A DNA stretch of 10,059 bases from the NCBI GenBank assembly GCA_030019105.1, contig JASEGY010000102.1, forward strand, positions 1 to 10,059. The letters run 5' to 3'. The notes beneath the pieces are model-generated. The model saw only the letters and a list, made by a program, of their open reading frames with translations. It ran no database searches and was not told where the DNA came from. The DNA comes from a bacterium (GTDB lineage Bacteria > UBA9089 > JASEGY01). Below, piece by piece: positions 156-9,757 of the stretch; within the stretch, counting starts at the first letter, position 1, and each line of letters opens with the position of its first letter. Both the position numbers and the translations under genes were made by a program.

Positions 156-1445
156 TCAAGGAAAAAGTTGAGGAATAGTCGAGGGAAATAATGTAATGAC
201 CCGATCGATATCCTCTTTCGAATGCGTTGCCATCAGGGTCAGGCGAAGTCTGGATGTCCACTTAGGAACTGATGGAGGCCGAATGGGAAGGACAAGGATA
301 CCGGCCTGATAAAGTTTGGCGGCAGCCCCCATTGTAGTTTGGACATCCCCCAGGATAATAGGAATAATGGGGGTCTCACTTGTGCCCAGATTAAGGCCGG
401 CTGCCCTGAGCTGCTGTCTGAGATAGTTCGTATTCTCCCACAGTCTCTCGATAATATCCGGCTGTTCCCTGATTACCCTCAGCGCAGCTAAGGCCGAAGC
501 TGCCGTAGAAGGGGGAAGGGCCGTCGAATAGATGTACGACCTGGCCTTATTTCTCAGATATTCGATCAAGGTTTTAGAGCCGGCCGCAAACCCTCCCGCC
601 GCTGCCAAGGCCTTGGAAAGGGTGCCCATCCGGATATCTATCTTATCCTCAAGCCCAAAATGAGAGGCAGTGCCTCTGCCTCCTTTCCCAATAACCCCGG
701 TTGCATGGGCATCGTCAACCATCACCAGGCAATCATATCTTTCGGCTAATTCCGTTATCTCAGGAAGGGGGGCAATGTCGCCGTCCATACTGAATATCCC
801 GTCAGTTACGATAAGACGCCGGCGTATCTTCTCAATAACTTGGGGCTCAGAAACCAGGTTTCTTGAAGAAACCTGGTTTCTACCCGCAAGTGCCCCGAAA
901 TATTGAGAAGATACACGTCGGCCGTGTGCGGACTCCGACTCCTTATGCAGGATTCTTTCTAATGCCCCCGCATCTCGGTGGGGATAAACCCTGATTTTAG
1001 CCCCACTTAACCTTGCCCCATCAATCAGGCTGGCGTGGTTTAATTTATCTAAAAGAATGAGATCACCCTTTCCAACCAGGCTGGTGATAATTCCTATGTT
1101 AGCCGCATAACCTGAAGGAAACAAGATGGCCGCTTCAGTGCCTTTAAAGGCGGCAATCTCTTCTTCTAATTCTCGATGAAGGGTGTATGTGCCGGAAATA
1201 AGGGGAGAAGCGCCACTGCCGGTCCCAAATCGTTCTATGGCCTCCTTAGCGGCCTCCCTGACTTTAGGATGATGGGTTAAGCCCAGATAATTATTGGAGC
1301 AGAAAAGAAGCAGTTCCCTCCCCTTGGTCTTAACTAAATGAGGGGCCGGATGTTCTTCCACAACTTTTACTCGTCTTAATAATCCCTCTTCCTCCAGATT
1401 TCTTAGTTCTTGTGCCAGTTCAGTTTCTATAATCATCTGTCGCAT
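156..1445 (-). CDS. bioF: 8-amino-7-oxononanoate synthase (BioF-like) with in-frame palindromic insertion
   Basis: This is a PLP-dependent alpha-oxoamine synthase. BioF condenses pimeloyl-ACP or pimeloyl-CoA with L-alanine to give 8-amino-7-oxononanoate, CO2 and the free carrier, the first step of biotin ring assembly in the cytoplasm. Family hallmarks seen here are SNNYLGL near residue 50, GTGSGASPLISGTYTLH, FPSGYAAN, the LNHASLIDGARLSGA segment, VTDGIFSMDGD, DDAHATGV (D244 and H247, expected PLP contacts) and TLSKA with the Schiff-base lysine K278. YIYSTALPPS follows. At 429 residues it is about 35 longer than usual BioF. The excess is residues 178-210, encoded by an inserted palindromic repeat directly before RRLIVTDG; without it the protein would be 396 residues. 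The SGxSR motif reads SGASP, so its arginine is replaced by proline. The start at 1445 is the first ATG; a second lies at codon 4. No Shine-Dalgarno sequence precedes either, because a 9-bp tandem repeat begins six bases upstream. The related families KBL, ALAS and SPT are less likely from the LNHASLIDGARLSGA and SMDGD context. No other bio genes are in the window. Confidence 0.88.
   Translation of the reverse strand: MRQMIIETELAQELRNLEEEGLLRRVKVVEEHPAPHLVKTKGRELLLFCSNNYLGLTHHPKVREAAKEAIERFGTGSGASPLISGTYTLHRELEEEIAAFKGTEAAILFPSGYAANIGIITSLVGKGDLILLDKLNHASLIDGARLSGAKIRVYPHRDAGALERILHKESESAHGRRVSSQYFGALAGRNQVSSRNLVSEPQVIEKIRRRLIVTDGIFSMDGDIAPLPEITELAERYDCLVMVDDAHATGVIGKGGRGTASHFGLEDKIDIRMGTLSKALAAAGGFAAGSKTLIEYLRNKARSYIYSTALPPSTAASALAALRVIREQPDIIERLWENTNYLRQQLRAAGLNLGTSETPIIPIILGDVQTTMGAAAKLYQAGILVLPIRPPSVPKWTSRLRLTLMATHSKEDIDRVITLFPSTIPQLFP
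816..922. repeat. Palindromic repeat element inserted in frame within bioF, with flanking 8-bp duplication
   Basis: The 91-bp element at 824-914 has perfect 14-bp terminal inverted repeats (gtatcttctcaata at 824-837, tattgagaagatac at 901-914). Inside is a short ggggc/gcccc stem (842-846, 892-896) and a perfect 15-bp hairpin (agaaaccaggtttct at 849-863, its complement at 867-881, loop tga). The bases flanking it, acgccggc (816-823) and acgtcggc (915-922), match at 7 of 8 positions, as a target-site duplication would. Element plus one duplication is 99 bp, or 33 codons, so the reading frame is kept and no stop is introduced. Deleting it restores AHGRRLIVTDG, the expected BioF sequence. It carries no transposase and would need help in trans if mobile. 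The same core hairpin recurs at 1857-1889. Confidence 0.85.
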
Positions 1446-1665: not shown

Positions 1666-1816
1666 GTAGCCGCAACCTTATAGGTTGCGCAGGCTAAAGC
1701 CTGCGACTACCAGTTGGGGGGTAGCCGTAACCTTTAGGTTGCGCAGGCTAAAGCCTGCGACTACCAGTTGGGGTAGCCGCAACCTTTAGGTTGCGCAGGC
1801 TAAAGCCTGCGACTAC
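1666..1816. repeat. Three tandem 44-45 bp three-way-junction repeats
   Basis: Units lie at 1666-1710, 1721-1764 and 1773-1816, separated by cagttggggg and cagttggg. Each unit partitions with no base left over into an outer 6-bp stem (gtagcc with gactac, one mismatch) and two inner 6-bp hairpins. The inner hairpins are gcaacc-ttta-ggttgc and gcaggc-taaa-gcctgc. Their 4-base loops are complementary to each other. Unit 1 has a five-base loop (ttata), and unit 2 has a c-to-t change in the first inner stem (gtaacc). Spacers are far too short for a CRISPR array, and nothing resembles a tRNA beyond the cloverleaf outline. Confidence 0.88.
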
Positions 1817-1920
1817 TACACGTCGGCGGAAGTTCCCCCTCGGTTTGAGGAGCCTGAGAAACCAGGTTTTTTCAAAAAACCTGGTTTCTGAAACTGGCGG
1901 GGAACTTCCGCCGACGTGTA
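1817..1920. repeat. 104-bp hairpin element sharing its core with the bioF insertion
   Basis: The ends are perfect 22-bp inverted repeats beginning tacacgtcggcggaag (1817-1838 and 1899-1920). Nested inside is a perfect 16-bp hairpin (agaaaccaggtttttt at 1857-1872, complement at 1874-1889) with a single-base centre. The core agaaaccaggttt is the same as in the bioF insertion at 849-861. The element sits exactly after gactac of the third 44-bp unit and is followed by ccagttttggg, the expected continuation of that unit's spacer. It therefore looks like a later insertion, perhaps with a 3-bp tac duplication. It has no open frame of its own. Confidence 0.85.
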
Positions 1921-1939: not shown

Positions 1940-4900
1940 TTATTTCATCACAATCATCCGCTTAGTTAGAATGCGATTGCCTGCCTGGAGTTGGTATAGA
2001 TAGACGCCGGAAGCCGCTTCTTCTCCGGAGATGTTTCGGCCGTCCCAGTAGGCAGCCCTGTCTTTGGACATGTAACTTCCGGCCACAAGCTCTCCGAGAG
2101 GCAATTCCCTGACCAATCTGCCGGAAAGATCATAGATTCGAATACGAACTTCTGCCTCCCTTTCCAGGGCAAAGGGTATCCAGGTCTCCGGATTGATTGG
2201 GTTGGGGTAATTCTGAAGCAAAGTAGTGGCAGAAGGGATAGTCGCGGCCAGGCCCTGCTGAATTAAAGAGCCCAGGAATTCCCTGATTTCCCGGATGGCC
2301 TCCTGGTTGGATGAAGCGCCTTCTAAGGCTTGATACATGGCCCGATAAGCCGCCAGATGACTGGAATGGTCTATCCCTTCAGTCCCCTGGTCCACCTCGA
2401 AACTCGACGACCCGCAAGACCGAGCCGGTCTGGCAGCGGGTGCCCCGAACTCAAAACTCTTTTCCGGCGCTGAACTGCTTCCATTATGTCTCTTATGCCA
2501 GTTTAGCCCCAGGACAAGGACATCAGACGCATTCACTGTTCCATCCCCATTGGCATCGGCATAAATAGCCGCGGTCGGAGTCCAGGAAAGCACCCTTTGA
2601 CCAATCCAGGAAATTGAGGCATCAGACCGGGCCGAACCGGTGTTGTTCCAGTAAAGGCCAATGGGCAGGACATCCCTGGCATCAACATAGCCGTCGTTAT
2701 TTGTATCTCCCGGCCAAACAGTCAGATACTGAACTAATCCCGAACCGGTAATGATCTGACTGGCCGAAGTAGTTAGCCCGTAGGAACTATTGTTGCTGTC
2801 CTTAGCCACGACATCGCTGAAAGTGAGGTCAATGGTTGTTCCCTGGGTAAGGGTAGAGGAAAGTTCAAAGGTAATCTTGGCCACTGTTCCTTGCCCGTTG
2901 GCCCCCTTGGTGTAATTCGTCCCCTTTCGGCTAATCCCCACTTCTAAGTTTCCGTTATCTACCTGCCAGGTAGGCCCCACTAAGCTGGAGGCATTCTTAC
3001 CCGCACCGATGAGGAAATCTCCGGCCTCAACATCAACCACGCTGAGGTAGCTGCTATCTAAAAAATTCACCTTAATGAAAAGGCCGAACATATCATTTGC
3101 CGGGAAAGCAGCGCTCCCGACTTCTACTTTAACCTCAATTTGAGCGCCCGGCGTTACCGTGTAGGAAGCCTGATCAAATCTAAGGGGAATATTGGTGCTT
3201 GGGGCAGCGACGGTAACTGTCACCTGGTCAGAGAGGCTGTTGTTGCCGCCGTCCCTGACTACTAAGGAAAAGAGATAAGCTCCTACTGTTGTCGGAGTAA
3301 AGGTCGGCCGGGCAACATTAGTTAAGGTCACTGGCGCAGGATTGCCGGCAGCCGACGTCCAGATATATGTCAGGGCATCACCTTCCGGATCAGAACTTCC
3401 GGTCCCATCCAACATAACCAGCGAACCAACCGAGACGGTCTGGTCCGGCCCGGCATTGGCCGCAGGCAATTGACTCACTGTCCGCCAGGAGCTATAATCT
3501 ACATAATCACTCACCTCATTCCCCAATCCAGCCGGATTATATCCTGGCCCCACTAAGGAGGAATCCTTTGGCCCGGCAAGATTACCCCACCAGTTGTTCC
3601 GGGCGTTGATGATAATTGAATTATCGGTATTTAACACCCCAAAATTATTCCCATAGATATCAGATCCGCTCAGGGTGGGTCTGGAAGATGCCCCTGTTAA
3701 GAGGCCAAGATTATTACTGGCCATGGTGACTCCGGTAATAGTTGGTGAAGCCCCCAGGTTACAGTTTATGGCCGTCAGACAATTGGTAAACTGGCTTTGC
3801 TTTATGGCCGGTGAAGAAGAGACACAATTAAGCCCCACACTGGCATATCTTATCAAGACATATTCAAAGGCGGAAGAATCCGAGCTCTGATTCAGGGTAA
3901 TCTCTCCCCAATTGCCCTTAGCCGGTGAAGTGGTTGATCCATCGTTGTTGGTATCACCCCCGGCTTCATCATCGAGCCGCGAGGTGAAGGTGATCATTGA
4001 ACTTGAACTGCCCATGGCCGTTATCCAACCATTGACATTAATGGATCCGACAACCTTGATGATCACCCCGGGATCAATCTTCCATTCAGCAGTGTCTTTA
4101 ACGATCAGGCCCTCGGTAATCAGGAAAGGCGCCCCCGTATCAGACCAGGTAACATTGGCAGCTATACCCGCATTCGCAACCACCTCCTGAATGCGGATGG
4201 CGTTATAGGTATTCCCGGTCATGATATTACCGCTCAGGCGGCCGGCATTATCAGCCGTAATAAGAATGGGATAATTATTGTTGTTATTGACGATCCGGTT
4301 GTTGGTGATGGTTGGTTTGGCCGCATCAGAACCAAAGGTAGTAATTATCCCCCCCTCTAAGGAATGGGGATCAAAGCCGCCATTATTCTGCATGGTATTT
4401 CCGGTAATGACCGGTGATGACCCATTTTCACAACCAATAGCCCGATAGGCGTTATCTTTAAAAACAGATCGTTGAATGGTCGGAGAGGAGGCATTAAGTT
4501 TTAGACCGTACTTAGAATAACGGAAGATGCAGTAGTCGAAAGTACCCGAAGCATCATCCAGATAGACAAACTGCCAATCGCCCATCTGACCGGTAGTGGC
4601 CCCATCATAATTAGTATCCCCGCCGGCAGTATCATCCTGGTAGGAAGTGAAGATAACGCTGTTATTGGCGGTATCTGTTCCCTGGGCGATGATAGTCCCC
4701 TTAACGGTCAGGTCCTGCCCAATCTTGGCCACTACTCCGGGTTTAATAGACAAGCTCACTCCGGGATCAATACTCACCCACTCAAAATAAATCGGGACCG
4801 GAATATTATCAGCGTTGTTCCAGTTCCTGTACCAGGTTGTATCCTTGCTGTGCTTGGATTCAGTCAAATGGATGCCATTATGTTTATTCCCTGAGATATC

Positions 4901-7900
4901 ATTGTCTTTGATCACATAGCTCCCAATAGAATCAGCTAAAGAATGCTTGCCTTTGACTATGGCCCAGCCCCGGTTATTTTTGATCCGGTTATTGGCGATC
5001 GTCTCCGAAGGGGAGGCGTTGGTATTTATCCCCCCTGAGGTATTAGCTGAGATAGTGCAGCCGTTGATGTTGAAGTTAGTGGTATTACCCAGCCAGGGAT
5101 CGCCCAGATTTTCGATCCCCCAGTCTTTATTCCAGGTGATGGTGCAGGTATCTACATTAAGGGTTCCGCTCGGCACTTCAAAGAGGATACCGCTCGACTC
5201 ATTCTCTGTAATAGTGCAGGAGCTAATCCTCGGATGGGAATTGCCCTGGGCATAGATTCCGTAACCGCAGCTTTTGGCAATTCGGGAGTTAGAAATAGTC
5301 GGTGAGGCTGATCTAATCTCCACCGCATCTTGCTTTAAGCCGTTTTGAGAACCGGCATACAGGATGTCACAGTAATTCAGAACCGATGAATCATTGCTCT
5401 GGTCAGCGAAGACAATGCCCCGCCAATCACACGCCTGTGGGGTATCAGCATTTGAGGTAAAGGTAATTCTATGGCTCGATGTCCCTGAGGCATTCAAGAG
5501 TCCCTTGACTAACAGGCTTATATTTTCACCCGTCTTAAATTTGATAACCACGCCGGGTTCGATGGTCAGGGTGGCCGAGTCATTGATAATTAAATCATCT
5601 TCAGATACGTAGGGACTATTGGCTAAGGTCCAGGTATCGGATTCGGCAATAGCCAGGGAGCTAATCTGCCCGTTTATTCGATTCAGATAAGTAGGGGAAA
5701 TAGTAACACTCCAGGTGGCGCTCCACTCGGTGGGATTACCGGCCCCATCCTGGGCCCTGACCCGCCAATAGTATGTCTTGCCGACCACCAGGGCGCTGCT
5801 CACCGTGTAAGAAGTATCGGAATAGTTGGATACTTCTATCTCAGGGGTGGTCAGGGTGCTGTCTCCCAGGTCAATCCGGAGGGTATAAGTGACCCCGGAG
5901 GTGTCGGCCGCGTCAGACCAGCGGAAGGTGGGATAGGCATTAGATGTTCCACTATTAGCCGGTAAAATAAGGGCCGGACCACTGGGGGTAGTTGTATCCA
6001 CCTTGAACTGAACGGTCTCACTCCAGTTGGTATTATTGTGCGCCGCATCTTCACCTTGAACCCGCCAGTAATAAATCCCTTCGCTCATAACCGTCATGTG
6101 GGTGTAAGAGGTGGAGGTAGTAGTAAATATCTCAGGGGATGAGAAACTACCATTATCATCGATCTGAAGGGTGTAAGTAATAGGCGGAGATATTCCCTCC
6201 GTAACCGCGGTCCACTCAAAGGTAGGTGTGCTGTCGCTTATAGAGCTCAGATGAGTGGGAGTAATCGCTTTAGGGAAGCTAAAATCACCCCCTGTCTGAG
6301 TATCAATGATCACGATCCGGGTTCCGGTACTCCAGTTGCCGGCATTGCCGGCCTGATCAGTGGCCTTGACCCGCCAGTAATAGCTTTTATTCGACAGTGC
6401 TTCCGTAACCGTATAGCTGGAAAGGGTTAAAGTTTTATTTATCTCTGGTGAAGAAAAGTCGTTGTTATCGTCTACCTGGAGGGTATAGGTAGCTCCGGCC
6501 TCATCTGACCAATTAAATATCAAGGTTGAAGTGTCAGGGTTGACCACTGCTCCATTCGCTGGGGCAACTAATGTTGGAGCCGAGGGGACGGTAGTATCCA
6601 CCACGAAGGCCCGGCCGTTACTGAAGCTGGATTCATTACCTGCATAATCAGTGGCTGAAATCCTCCAGTAGTAAGTCCCATCAGGGAAGGAAATATTGTA
6701 GCTATTGAACATAGGATCAGAGAAGTATTCCGGGTGATACCAGGTGGAATTTCCGGCATACGGATAGTTAGTATAGACACTGTATGTGTTAGCGAAATCA
6801 GAGACCTTGGAGAATTGGATGGTATAATAAATGGTATCAAAGGTTAAGGCCCCGGCCGTAACCGAGTCGGTCACCGCAGGCCAGGAGAACCAGGGCATAC
6901 TCTCTTTAAGATAGGCCCCATCAGCCGGTGATGTCAAGTAGGGGGCATCCGGGGCAGTGGTATCTACCGTAACCGAACCGGGGGATTCGTTGGATTGCCT
7001 CCAATTCCCGATATTTCCGGCTGCATCCCTGGCCCTTACCCGCCAATAGTAGGTCCCTTCGGACAGAACCGGACTGGGGGTGTAAGAAGTAGTCGGTATC
7101 GTGGGACTAATCCCGGAGATGCTTCGAACCGGGGACGAAAAGTCCGGATCATCGTCTATCTGCAAGTCATAGCTGTCTGCGCCGGTGACTGCCTGCCAGG
7201 TAAAGGTCGGATTACTGCCTACGACCACATTCGTTCCTGGCGGAGGATTAGTCAGGGTGGGAGAATCAGGCGCAGTGGTGTCAATAGTCAGGGAGAATTT
7301 ATTGTTCCCTTCACTCTCGTTGCCGGCCGCATCCGTAGCCATTGCCCGCCAGTAGTAAACCCCATCCGGGAGGGCCTGATAGGCATACAAGGTATAGGTA
7401 GAAGCAGCCAGGTCATTCGCTTCTAAGACAACAGGCGCGAAGGCATTATTTTCAGCTATCTGCAAGCGGCAGCTTATTACTGATTCGCCCCCATTCACAT
7501 CATCCCAATTAAAGGCGGGAGTATTATCATTGGTTACTGTCCCGTGAGACGGACTGACTAAGACAGGGTCAGTCGGGGCGGTGGTATCAAATTTGGTCTG
7601 CCAGATGGCGCTTGGCCCTACATTTCCGGCCCGGTCAAAGGCCTTCACCTGCCAGTAATAGGTGGTTCCTTCCCCAAAGCCTGTTCCGGAATATTGAAAA
7701 TAAGAGAGAGGAGGTGAGCCGGTCAGGGTATCATAAATGATCCAACCAGTAGTCAGATTAATTCCGTCGGTGTCGGCGACAATGCTGTAATAGCTCAGGT
7801 TCTCATCAGTTACATCCTCCCAGTCAAAGATGGGGGTGGTATCATTAGTGGTCGATCCGTTAGTTGGAGAAACAAGAACCGGCTGGGAGGGGGCGACAGT

Positions 7901-9757
7901 ATCGATGACCAGAAGCCATTCAGCGCTCCAACCACTCCCATTCCCGGCCGCATCGTAGGCCTTGATCCGCCACAGGTAAGACCCATCAAGGAGGCTGAGG
8001 CTGTAAGTAGTTCCGGTAATGCCGGTTATGACCTCGACCGGGGTGGTGAATCCAGTCGCTATTTCAGCCATCTGAAGGGTATAAGTTTGGTTGCCGGTGT
8101 TGCTCATGTCATCGGTATCAGTTGCGGCATACCACTCGAAGGTGGGCGACGGATCAATAGAATAACTTCCGGAGACCGGAGACTTGAGGGTGGACGCGGA
8201 GGGGGCATTGATGTCAATAAATACCTTCCAGACCGTGGAAGCAGTAGTATTGCCCGCATTGTCAACGGCAATTACCCGCCACCAGGCAGTGGTGTCGCCA
8301 GTGCCTCCCCAATTGTGGGTTGATTCAAGTTGGGAAGCAGTCAAGCCGGATTTATTCAGCTCCGGGCTGCTAATGGTTGAATCCGTGTTATCTGCCTGAA
8401 TGGTGTAAGTTAACTGAGGTTCAGGATCATTCCAGTCAAAGAACGGCGTAGGGTCGTTGGTATAGCTATTGTTGGATGGTGAAATAAGGGTAACTGCCGC
8501 CGGGGCAGCAGTATCTATGATCACCTTCCGATGAATACTCCAGTTTCCCAACCGGTGGGAGGTATTCACTGCCCTGACGCGCCACCAGTAAGTCCTGTCA
8601 GGTAAAGTAACCGTTGGCTGGTAGAAGGTATTGGTTGGAGTGGCATCAATGAGGGTATCATCAGAGTCAGGGATGGAGAAACTTTCATCCTGGTCGATCT
8701 GTATCTGATAATAGGAAATATCAGACTGACCGTTCCAGCTAAAGAACGGAGTTGAGGTGTCTTTATATGCTCCATCCGCAGGGGTAAAAAGGGTCGGTGG
8801 GTTTGGCCCCTCCGTTGAAATTGGTTCGATGATGAATGTGCTTACTTTGCTCCAGTTACTGACACATCCCACATTGCACTTCACCCTCCAGAACCAGGTG
8901 CCCTCAGCCAGATCAACCGGCAGGTTGTAAGGTGAAGTAGTGGTATCAGACGAATGCCAGGGAGAGGTAAAGGTGTTGTGAGTAGATATTTGAAAAGAAT
9001 AAGTATCAGCCGAATTATCGGTTACCTTTTCCCAGGCAAAGCTCGGCCTGAGGTTATTGGTAATTGAATCATTGGGCAAAGAAATGAGCTCGGGTCCCCG
9101 CACCCTGATAGTCCAGACATTGCTGGCAAAGGCCGCATGTGACCAATTGCTCTGAACCCCGGTATCGGCCCCGTCAGAGGCCCTGACCCGCCAGTAATAT
9201 GTCCCGTTTTTGCCAATGTAAATAGTGCAGGAATTGGTGGTAGAGACAGTGGTCGTATCCGGGGAAGTAAAATTAGAGGCATCGTCTAATTGGATGGTAT
9301 AGGTGTCTGCCCCGGCATTTTCCCAGAGGAAGGTAACCACGTTACTCACGGTGTCACTTTCGCTCAATGGGGTGAGGAGCTTAGGTGGATAAAGATAAAA
9401 TTCCCACGGCCCAGCCCAGCCACTGTCCCAGGAAGGCAGGGTGTTTTTAACGGCCCTGACCCGCCAGTAGAAAGTTGTCCGCACGCCGTCTCCACCCAGG
9501 TAAGTGCTGGAGATAGTATAATTGGTATCACTGGTCTCGACTGCCTTTAGCAAAGGATCAAAGGAGGGATTATCCGCCAGTTCCAGGAAATAGCCGGTGG
9601 CATTGGAGACCCCGTTCCAACTGAAGGTAGGCCGGGCATCATAGATGGCGGTCTCATCCGCCGGTGAGGGATTGGCTGGCATCCCCTGGGCCAAAACCAA
9701 TTTGCTCATAAGTAGAATGAAGATGATAATAAGGCCAATCGTGCTTGTTTTTTTCAT
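1940..9757 (-). CDS. Giant secreted modular protein: 13 Ig/FN3-like repeats, beta-helix, PKD, cohesin, dockerin, sorting domain
   Basis: This 2605-residue protein is probably exported and surface-attached or extracellular. It starts with a clear Sec signal peptide: MKK, a hydrophobic stretch at residues 7-22, and cleavage likely after VLA at 23. Next come 13 Ig/FN3-like repeats (about 27-1352) and three parallel beta-helix modules (about 1369-2091). These are followed by a PKD domain (about 2097-2185), a cohesin-like domain (about 2190-2345) and a dockerin pair with two calcium loops, DTNNDGYVDARD and DANGDGTVNASD (about 2348-2423). After a linker comes a FlgD-Ig/Por-type sorting domain (about 2513-2605). 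No catalytic motif is visible, so adhesion, matrix building or carbohydrate binding is more likely than enzymatic activity; a polysaccharide-active beta-helix cannot be excluded. The start at 9757 fits the signal peptide. A weak ggggt lies eight bases upstream. The frame is intact throughout. I do not recognise a named gene. Confidence 0.93.
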   Translation of the reverse strand: MKKTSTIGLIIIFILLMSKLVLAQGMPANPSPADETAIYDARPTFSWNGVSNATGYFLELADNPSFDPLLKAVETSDTNYTISSTYLGGDGVRTTFYWRVRAVKNTLPSWDSGWAGPWEFYLYPPKLLTPLSESDTVSNVVTFLWENAGADTYTIQLDDASNFTSPDTTTVSTTNSCTIYIGKNGTYYWRVRASDGADTGVQSNWSHAAFASNVWTIRVRGPELISLPNDSITNNLRPSFAWEKVTDNSADTYSFQISTHNTFTSPWHSSDTTTSPYNLPVDLAEGTWFWRVKCNVGCVSNWSKVSTFIIEPISTEGPNPPTLFTPADGAYKDTSTPFFSWNGQSDISYYQIQIDQDESFSIPDSDDTLIDATPTNTFYQPTVTLPDRTYWWRVRAVNTSHRLGNWSIHRKVIIDTAAPAAVTLISPSNNSYTNDPTPFFDWNDPEPQLTYTIQADNTDSTISSPELNKSGLTASQLESTHNWGGTGDTTAWWRVIAVDNAGNTTASTVWKVFIDINAPSASTLKSPVSGSYSIDPSPTFEWYAATDTDDMSNTGNQTYTLQMAEIATGFTTPVEVITGITGTTYSLSLLDGSYLWRIKAYDAAGNGSGWSAEWLLVIDTVAPSQPVLVSPTNGSTTNDTTPIFDWEDVTDENLSYYSIVADTDGINLTTGWIIYDTLTGSPPLSYFQYSGTGFGEGTTYYWQVKAFDRAGNVGPSAIWQTKFDTTAPTDPVLVSPSHGTVTNDNTPAFNWDDVNGGESVISCRLQIAENNAFAPVVLEANDLAASTYTLYAYQALPDGVYYWRAMATDAAGNESEGNNKFSLTIDTTAPDSPTLTNPPPGTNVVVGSNPTFTWQAVTGADSYDLQIDDDPDFSSPVRSISGISPTIPTTSYTPSPVLSEGTYYWRVRARDAAGNIGNWRQSNESPGSVTVDTTAPDAPYLTSPADGAYLKESMPWFSWPAVTDSVTAGALTFDTIYYTIQFSKVSDFANTYSVYTNYPYAGNSTWYHPEYFSDPMFNSYNISFPDGTYYWRISATDYAGNESSFSNGRAFVVDTTVPSAPTLVAPANGAVVNPDTSTLIFNWSDEAGATYTLQVDDNNDFSSPEINKTLTLSSYTVTEALSNKSYYWRVKATDQAGNAGNWSTGTRIVIIDTQTGGDFSFPKAITPTHLSSISDSTPTFEWTAVTEGISPPITYTLQIDDNGSFSSPEIFTTTSTSYTHMTVMSEGIYYWRVQGEDAAHNNTNWSETVQFKVDTTTPSGPALILPANSGTSNAYPTFRWSDAADTSGVTYTLRIDLGDSTLTTPEIEVSNYSDTSYTVSSALVVGKTYYWRVRAQDGAGNPTEWSATWSVTISPTYLNRINGQISSLAIAESDTWTLANSPYVSEDDLIINDSATLTIEPGVVIKFKTGENISLLVKGLLNASGTSSHRITFTSNADTPQACDWRGIVFADQSNDSSVLNYCDILYAGSQNGLKQDAVEIRSASPTISNSRIAKSCGYGIYAQGNSHPRISSCTITENESSGILFEVPSGTLNVDTCTITWNKDWGIENLGDPWLGNTTNFNINGCTISANTSGGINTNASPSETIANNRIKNNRGWAIVKGKHSLADSIGSYVIKDNDISGNKHNGIHLTESKHSKDTTWYRNWNNADNIPVPIYFEWVSIDPGVSLSIKPGVVAKIGQDLTVKGTIIAQGTDTANNSVIFTSYQDDTAGGDTNYDGATTGQMGDWQFVYLDDASGTFDYCIFRYSKYGLKLNASSPTIQRSVFKDNAYRAIGCENGSSPVITGNTMQNNGGFDPHSLEGGIITTFGSDAAKPTITNNRIVNNNNNYPILITADNAGRLSGNIMTGNTYNAIRIQEVVANAGIAANVTWSDTGAPFLITEGLIVKDTAEWKIDPGVIIKVVGSINVNGWITAMGSSSSMITFTSRLDDEAGGDTNNDGSTTSPAKGNWGEITLNQSSDSSAFEYVLIRYASVGLNCVSSSPAIKQSQFTNCLTAINCNLGASPTITGVTMASNNLGLLTGASSRPTLSGSDIYGNNFGVLNTDNSIIINARNNWWGNLAGPKDSSLVGPGYNPAGLGNEVSDYVDYSSWRTVSQLPAANAGPDQTVSVGSLVMLDGTGSSDPEGDALTYIWTSAAGNPAPVTLTNVARPTFTPTTVGAYLFSLVVRDGGNNSLSDQVTVTVAAPSTNIPLRFDQASYTVTPGAQIEVKVEVGSAAFPANDMFGLFIKVNFLDSSYLSVVDVEAGDFLIGAGKNASSLVGPTWQVDNGNLEVGISRKGTNYTKGANGQGTVAKITFELSSTLTQGTTIDLTFSDVVAKDSNNSSYGLTTSASQIITGSGLVQYLTVWPGDTNNDGYVDARDVLPIGLYWNNTGSARSDASISWIGQRVLSWTPTAAIYADANGDGTVNASDVLVLGLNWHKRHNGSSSAPEKSFEFGAPAARPARSCGSSSFEVDQGTEGIDHSSHLAAYRAMYQALEGASSNQEAIREIREFLGSLIQQGLAATIPSATTLLQNYPNPINPETWIPFALEREAEVRIRIYDLSGRLVRELPLGELVAGSYMSKDRAAYWDGRNISGEEAASGVYLYQLQAGNRILTKRMIVMK
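1943..2221 (-). other. FlgD-Ig / type IX secretion C-terminal sorting domain
   Basis: The last 93 residues begin LLQNYPNPINPETWIPF. They continue with EVRIRIYDLSGRLVREL, an AAYWDGRNISGEEAASGVYLYQL core and end KRMIVMK. This is the beta-sandwich found as FlgD-like Ig domains and as Por/T9SS sorting signals: secretion across the outer membrane, often followed by cell-surface attachment. The segment before it (about residues 2465-2505) is a short helix-forming linker rich in Glu, Ala and Gln. Whether this organism has a type IX system cannot be seen here. Confidence 0.8.
2490..3470 (-). other. PKD domain, cohesin-like domain and extended dockerin in tandem
   Basis: The PKD-like domain (about 3205-3468) begins ANAGPDQTVSVGS, contains DGTGSSDPEGDALTYIW and ends with a VRDGGNNS...TVTV strand. 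The cohesin-like domain (about 2725-3190) begins LRFDQASYTVTPGAQIEVKV and contains FGLFIKVNF and the GTVAKITFEL strand typical of the family. The dockerin pair (about 2490-2716) has two EF-hand-like loops, DTNNDGYVDARDVLPIG and DANGDGTVNASDVLVLG. They are separated by about 30 more residues than in a classical cellulosomal dockerin. Both partner types in one chain suggest self-association or recruitment of other secreted proteins; this is inferred. Confidence 0.8.
3485..5650 (-). other. Three right-handed parallel beta-helix modules
   Basis: Three modules start near 5650, 4850 and 4160. Each opens with a Trp-rich strand, then (S/K)I(E/D/K)PGVVIK, a VKGxLxAxGT turn, ITFTSxxDD and a GDW segment. 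PbH1-type coils with SSPTIxxSxFxxN and GIxxxxSxPxIxxxxIxxN patterns follow. The third ends in NARNNWWGNLAGP and VDYSSW, a frequent closing motif of NosD/pectate-lyase-like helices in uncultured bacteria. Asn-ladder and Ser/Thr stacks are evident. No pectate lyase catalytic Asp/Arg set was identified. The likely role is carbohydrate interaction or a rigid surface rod. Confidence 0.8.
5700..9679 (-). other. Array of 13 Ig/FN3-like repeats in the giant protein
   Basis: Thirteen copies of a roughly 100-residue unit are marked by a YYWRVRAxDxAGN-type motif. The motif is encoded near plus positions 9470, 9190, 8888, 8583, 8278, 7967, 7648, 7348, 7038, 6663, 6370, 6064 and 5762. A typical unit runs DTTAPxxPxLxSPxxG, then TPxFxW, YTLQxDxxxxF, the WRVRA strand and AGNxSxWS. 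Early units (1-4) lack the DTTAP linker and the AGN turn that units 5-13 usually carry. Unit 10 has about 25 extra residues rich in Tyr. The DNA copies are well diverged, so this is an old expansion rather than a recent duplication. Such arrays usually act as stalks or binding surfaces. Confidence 0.88.

Follow-up and report, generated by a model that had tools for sequence, protein, structure and literature searches.

The window analysed here is a 10,059-nt stretch of a draft bacterial genome (source genome G000; 4.34 Mb in 1053 contigs). Its minus strand carries a bioF gene, the only full-length bioF match in G000, with a palindromic element lying inside the reading frame. The features of the locus are as follows.

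156..1445, minus strand: bioF with insert (8-amino-7-oxononanoate synthase), 429 codons; TIGR00858 score of 467.9 bits (cut-off 426.45)
816..823, no strand: left copy of the 8-bp target-site duplication, ACGCCGGC, read from the sequence; sister copies of the element also have 8-bp duplications
824..846, plus strand: left arm, with the terminal inverted repeat GTATCTTCTCAATA at 824-837
849..881, minus strand: 33-bp core, a pair of 15-bp hairpins separated by TCA (minus strand); the minus strand codes for RNQVSSRNLVS
892..914, minus strand: right arm, with the terminal inverted repeat at 901-914
915..922, no strand: right copy of the target-site duplication, ACGTCGGC, like the left copy in 7 of 8 positions
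1816..1920, plus strand: second palindrome with the same core (AGAAACCAGGTTTTTTCAAAAAACCTGGTTTCT) and unrelated arms (ACACGTCGGCGGAAGTTCCCC), just past the stop of the next gene

Upstream of bioF, positions 1446-1815 hold ggacataaaggacgtaaa repeated in tandem, together with a ∼50-bp repeat (gtagccgcaacctttaggttgcgcaggctaaagcctgcgactac) that is present three times. The minus strand of positions 1940-9757 encodes a 2605-aa protein in which, by reading of the translation, putative beta-helix-like stretches and many Ig/FN3-like repeats can be made out, along with a dockerin-like segment and, at the C-terminus, a tail of sorting type.

The element in bioF and its place in the protein

The initial annotation described positions 816..922 as a 91-bp palindrome with perfect 14-bp ends and a perfect inner hairpin between near-identical 8-bp flanks. 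This description holds base for base, the interval being exactly duplication, element and duplication. The outer arms (824-846 and 892-914) are 23 nt long and 87% complementary, with the outermost 14 nt perfect, and the inner arms (849-864 and 866-881) are 100% complementary. The single difference between the flanking 8-mers reads CGA/CGG in the coding frame, both Arg. Folded as single-stranded DNA, the 91-mer (824-914) reaches -31.8 kcal/mol (z -10.9) and the 33-nt core -15 kcal/mol (z -7.4); in each case none of 200 shuffles was as good. The second palindrome of the window (1816-1920), which folds at -46.6 kcal/mol (z -11.4), is kin to the bioF element through the core only.

The element begins on a codon boundary and spans codons 178-208 of 429. 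Together with one 8-mer it makes 99 nt without a stop, i.e. exactly 33 codons just before the RRLIVTDG strand, as first proposed; removing these 99 nt in silico restores a BioF of the anticipated 396 residues, reading ...AHGRRLIVTDG.... Because 91 + 8 = 99, a 91-bp copy never shifts the frame; bioF stayed open for this reason and because the strand with TCA at the palindrome centre reads without a stop. When insertion of the 91-mer with its duplication was simulated at every bioF site in both orientations, the frame was kept in 739 of 2246 cases; thus about one-third of insertions are expected to be in frame and the remainder are presumably lost.

Residues 178-210 are absent from all 13 aligned BioF homologues, as the initial annotation anticipated. 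The BioF of a same-genus genome (G001; 397-aa frame) matches only residues 4-176 and 209-417. The motif RNLVS occurs in none of 119 other BioF homologues (from the best 120 of 7993 matches) and in none of 359 other proteins from three homologue searches (best 120 of each; the 119 BioF relatives included). In homologue P0026 this BioF loop carries a different insert, of ∼31 residues and unrelated to the one here. An AlphaFold2 model of BioF (52 sequences, 426 aa) has a mean pLDDT of 90.1; residues 174-201, within the insert, are below 50 and lie between a helix (156-171) and a strand (207-212). A Foldseek search with this model returned the BioF/serine palmitoyltransferase fold, with query TM-scores of 0.80-0.88 among the 50 matches listed. 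The insert is accordingly predicted to be a disordered loop in an intact BioF fold, and the 33 residues would be tolerated, not used, by the enzyme.

Family A in the source genome

The 14-nt end GTATCTTCTCAATA occurs 123 times in the 4.34-Mb genome G000 (68 + 55 on the two strands), while a control pattern occurs 0 times, so the bioF palindrome is not a product of chance. A nucleotide search of the genome with the 126-bp site gave 88 matches, in which both strands of one copy were often counted. The further copies that the initial annotation proposed to search for thus form a dispersed family, here called family A, with members in frame in other genes. The element tallies below cover the examined stretches of G000, about one-fifth of the genome.

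In these stretches family A comprises 45 distinct end pairs <400 bp apart, 30-395 bp in length, of which 12 are exactly 91 bp and five are 103 bp. In 13/45 elements the two flanking 8-mers match perfectly, and in 20/45 they have at most one mismatch, against 1/1845 in null comparisons at positions 20-60 bases further out; this difference identifies the 8-mers as target-site duplications and the family as MITE-like. In the other 25/45 the two 8-mers differ at more than one position. By the bases that follow the 14-nt repeat, 43 of the 45 elements have one A-type and one T-type end. Interiors vary: 23/45 have the core, and most of the others contain different short inverted repeats. The bioF copy is 99% identical to four sister copies. 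Family A has the hallmarks of a MITE, namely terminal inverted repeats, a target-site duplication of fixed size (8 bp), short length and many copies, with no transposase gene inside.

No transposase with GTATCTTCTCAATA ends was found in the examined stretches of G000, and an all-versus-all comparison of ORFs near family A ends yielded no recurring transposase. Among end pairs ≤4 kb apart in the stretches surveyed for them, three long ones (1604, 1609 and 2065 bp) were considered as autonomous partners and rejected: they enclose ordinary ORFs, and their flanking 8-mers have 3, 5 and 6 mismatches. Similar nuclease-like ORFs (putative Rpn/YhgA type, by reading) lie near family A ends in L098 and L126; a link with the mobility of the family is possible. 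L098 also carries the smallest arrangement, a 30-bp element (L098:5112-5141) made of two terminal repeats back to back and nothing else. Many A-type ends (L103, L105, L124, L150 and others) are preceded by one and the same decamer, ctgcgatttt, which seems to belong to a longer composite repeat.

All 45 elements were put to a through-frame test, which requires one frame to run uninterrupted across the element and for 50 codons or more into both flanks. Three passed, in bioF, C125 and C254, and all three are 91 bp long: 3/12 of the 91-bp copies against 0/33 of the others, with P ∼0.016 if copies are independent, where the in-gene counts are small and family A copies are related by descent. These further in-frame copies bear out the suggestion that the family is protein-compatible. 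In C125 the 91-bp copy lies inside a class A PBP-like gene, whose product has exactly 33 extra residues in comparison with P0121 (88% identical) and P0122 (85%). This copy is 91% identical and has two mismatches in its duplication, and the frame is still open. The 473-codon frame of C254 is a fusion of a YacP-like part (PF05991, residues 14-159) with an unrelated DNA-binding/ATPase-like part carrying a RecG-C-like domain. Its insert starts at residue 150, and to judge from the sequences it may lie in the tail or linker of the fusion. The case is counted as weaker, because each of the three compared homologues aligns either up to ∼162 or from 227 onward, never on both sides of the insert.

A fourth in-frame copy is apparently split between two contigs: C151 and C389 each terminate within one family A copy, the two outer flanks both read ATCAAGGG, and long frames (2305 and 770 aa) are open into the broken copy from both sides. 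The 91-bp copies of C708 and C129, at the extreme 5′ end of long frames, were left out of the in-gene count, since the true start may be downstream of the copy. Two more 91-bp copies (L145:840-930 and L163:3928-4018) lie near gene ends, in a PHP-domain gene (C348) and a nucleotidyltransferase gene (C942), where the last 7 and 14 codons are replaced by YLLNNLGLRNQVS and a stop. L096, considered as a split gene, was rejected: its element lies between two different genes, by reading of the translations.

The 33-bp core

The core AGAAACCAGGTTTCT-TCA-AGAAACCTGGTTTCT has 93 exact occurrences in G000 (46 + 47). A looser form is found 115 times in G000, four times in the same-genus genome G001 and not at all in 17 other genomes of the phylum; the core was not found in viral contigs. 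The examined stretches contain 140 distinct core sites with ≤5 mismatches, 90 of them exact, and the centre is TCA/TGA in 125/140. A core with this centre can be read in the RNQVSSRNLVS frame from a single strand, as one strand has TCA there and the complement TGA.

Known ends were located ≤60 bp from the core, overlaps being possible: A at 35 of the 140 sites, B (GAGCCTATCCCAAAAC) at 16, C (GGCGGAAGTT) at 14, D (TTTCGGCCATTGTGACC) at 27, E (TTCATTCCATTTGAATTTG) at seven and none at 49. For comparison, 1400 positions drawn at random from these stretches gave A 30, B 3, C 20, D 17 and E 9. The core is present in at least four palindrome families besides A, with unrelated arms, and also occurs alone. 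The layers may be nested: a 257-bp site (L142:3788-4044, in C331) has four inverted-repeat layers of different repeat families one inside another (A, a GTCCGTG repeat, C and the core); its folding energy is -80 kcal/mol (z -13.5). A duplication scan around all 140 core sites gave 11/140 against a null of 36/700, which is not clearly above that null and does not establish that core-bearing families other than A are mobile.

When a core site had to be flanked on either side, beyond 45 bp, by 50 or more open codons in frame, 10 of the 140 passed: bioF, C254, C125, C78, C110, HypF twice (C11), PBP1C (C91), an AhbD-like gene (C106) and C55. The last (L235) was not counted, as it is probably upstream of an opposite-strand gene, and the AhbD-like case is weak (a core with four mismatches, in a protein 16 residues longer than the matched TIGR04545 span). 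C542 and C156, where the core is in frame near a C-terminus or contig end, were likewise not counted. In C78 and C110 core-only copies lie in giant Ig-like and beta-helix proteins. The RNQVS-type frame is used in four family A gene copies and in these two core-only gene copies; gene copies from the remaining core-bearing families are read in another frame, of ETRFL type. Since the core module is common to several families and also occurs alone, several genes carry in-frame inserts of RNQVSSRNLVS or ETRFLEETWFL type.

HypF (L248:1661-4645) is an intact frame of 995 codons that matches TIGR00143 in five stretches (728.5 bits, cut-off 466.1). In comparison with the solved protein 3vth it has four extra segments, two containing the core and two consisting of tandem 18-bp units of PARPAR and GGPSRP type, and the same-genus HypF, a 799-aa frame, is without them. 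A partial second HypF-like stretch is present on C146, so this HypF is not certainly unique. A further 52 of the 140 sites have at least 60 open codons on both sides and no through-frame; 25 of these were read by eye, not by homology, and mostly look like cases of one gene ending before the core and another starting after it.

One may speculate that the 33-bp double hairpin, sitting at the centre of five or more families, is a mobile module in its own right that nests in palindromes, enters genes alone and spreads partly because it can be read as the harmless RNQVSSRNLVS; we regard this as possible but doubtful. If it were true, protein compatibility would be something for which the repeat itself has been selected.

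Origin of the insert and comparison with known systems

We think it quite probable that the bioF insert is a non-autonomous, MITE-like palindromic element, inserted in trans and tolerated. A 91-bp copy would have entered bioF through a transposase supplied in trans that acts on the GTATCTTCTCAATA ends, a step that we infer, as no transposase was found in the examined stretches. Insertion would have duplicated 8 bp of the target, a duplication shown by the sister copies, and the gene, remaining open, would have gained 33 residues in the loop before the RRLIVTDG strand. BioF would still work, and under purifying selection gene-breaking insertions would be lost while in-frame loop insertions survive.

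It is unlikely that bioF is instead a young pseudogene, inactivated by a recent insertion and open by chance. The identity of 99% to four sisters means that the copy may be recent, and chance would keep the frame open in about one-third of insertions (the 739/2246 above). However, no other full-length bioF match exists in the genome, the predicted fold is intact with the insert in a modelled disordered loop, P0026 accommodates its own unrelated insert of ∼31 residues in the same loop, and the more diverged PBP copy, with 91% identity and two duplication mismatches, is still open. The opposite reading takes up the word 'domesticated' of the initial annotation, with the 33 residues as a peptide functional in BioF and kept by selection; it is not borne out. 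The recurrence of the RNQVS frame in four family A and two core-only gene copies would fit it. Yet the same-genus and other BioF homologues lack the insert, the insert is predicted to be disordered, the other core-bearing families in genes use the ETRFL-type frame and there is no sign of a peptide function; since tolerance suffices as an explanation, we consider domestication very improbable.

An assembly artefact, with a repeat wrongly stitched into bioF, is still less probable. The assembly is a draft of 1053 contigs, two of which, C151 and C389, indeed break off within a copy, but the flanks of the bioF element are contiguous halves of one gene that join without loss at the 8-bp duplication, and inserts of the same kind are found in other genes. 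The strong hairpin could suggest that the insert is bypassed or spliced before the protein is made (as an intron, an intein or a ribosomal hop). We give this hardly any credence: a stop-free unit in frame needs no removal, and at 91 bp the element is smaller than any known intron or intein.

The tolerated MITE-like insertion invites comparison with several known repeats. Rickettsia and Wolbachia palindromic elements (RPE, WPE) are described, in passages of PMC3767692 and PMC10969869, as ∼100-150 bp long, with several families per genome, and located in ORFs without loss of frame. The likeness to them pointed out in the initial annotation is confirmed in that the bioF element is also a palindrome that keeps the frame of conserved genes (bioF, and the PBP gene as compared with empty-site relatives). 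It differs in its clear 8-bp target duplication, its 99-bp frame-neutral unit and a core common to families with unrelated arms. The bioF element thus works like the RPEs but is probably a separate family, set apart by the descriptions of RPEs in these passages. There are no Rickettsiales among the named BioF and PBP relatives listed, and the in-frame spread of palindromes of the Rickettsia kind is seen here in an unrelated-looking uncultured bacterium.

Outside Rickettsia, intragenic REPs are reported, in passages of PMC3733652, as short palindromes in coding regions of several bacteria, sometimes twice per gene. REPs are 20-40 bp long and tagged GTAG or CGTC, whereas the bioF element is 91 bp long, has GTATC at both ends and is flanked by target duplications; its size and tags are not those of a REP or REPIN. 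Bacterial MITEs, as characterised in parts of PMC10969869 and PMC3733652, have terminal inverted repeats, target duplications, no coding capacity and many copies, and are mostly intergenic; in a giant sulfur bacterium MITEs disrupting genes are described (passages of PMC4853749). Family A differs from these in that a subset of it is frame-neutral and lies inside genes. The repeats described here may be likened, by description, to the small dispersed repeats of cyanobacteria, which are very short, mobile and able to sit within other repeats. Our literature search, with most subscription journals outside it, returned no report of one palindrome core common to several MITE families.

In-frame palindromes being known in Rickettsia and, as intragenic REPs, elsewhere, the kind is already known. 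The size of 91 + 8 = 99 explains how the frame survives, and the system makes it testable whether short repeats evolve translatability and how loop insertions in conserved enzymes originate. What it adds to the known systems is the 8-bp duplication, the frame-neutral size, the empty sites in close relatives and the nested core common to several families.
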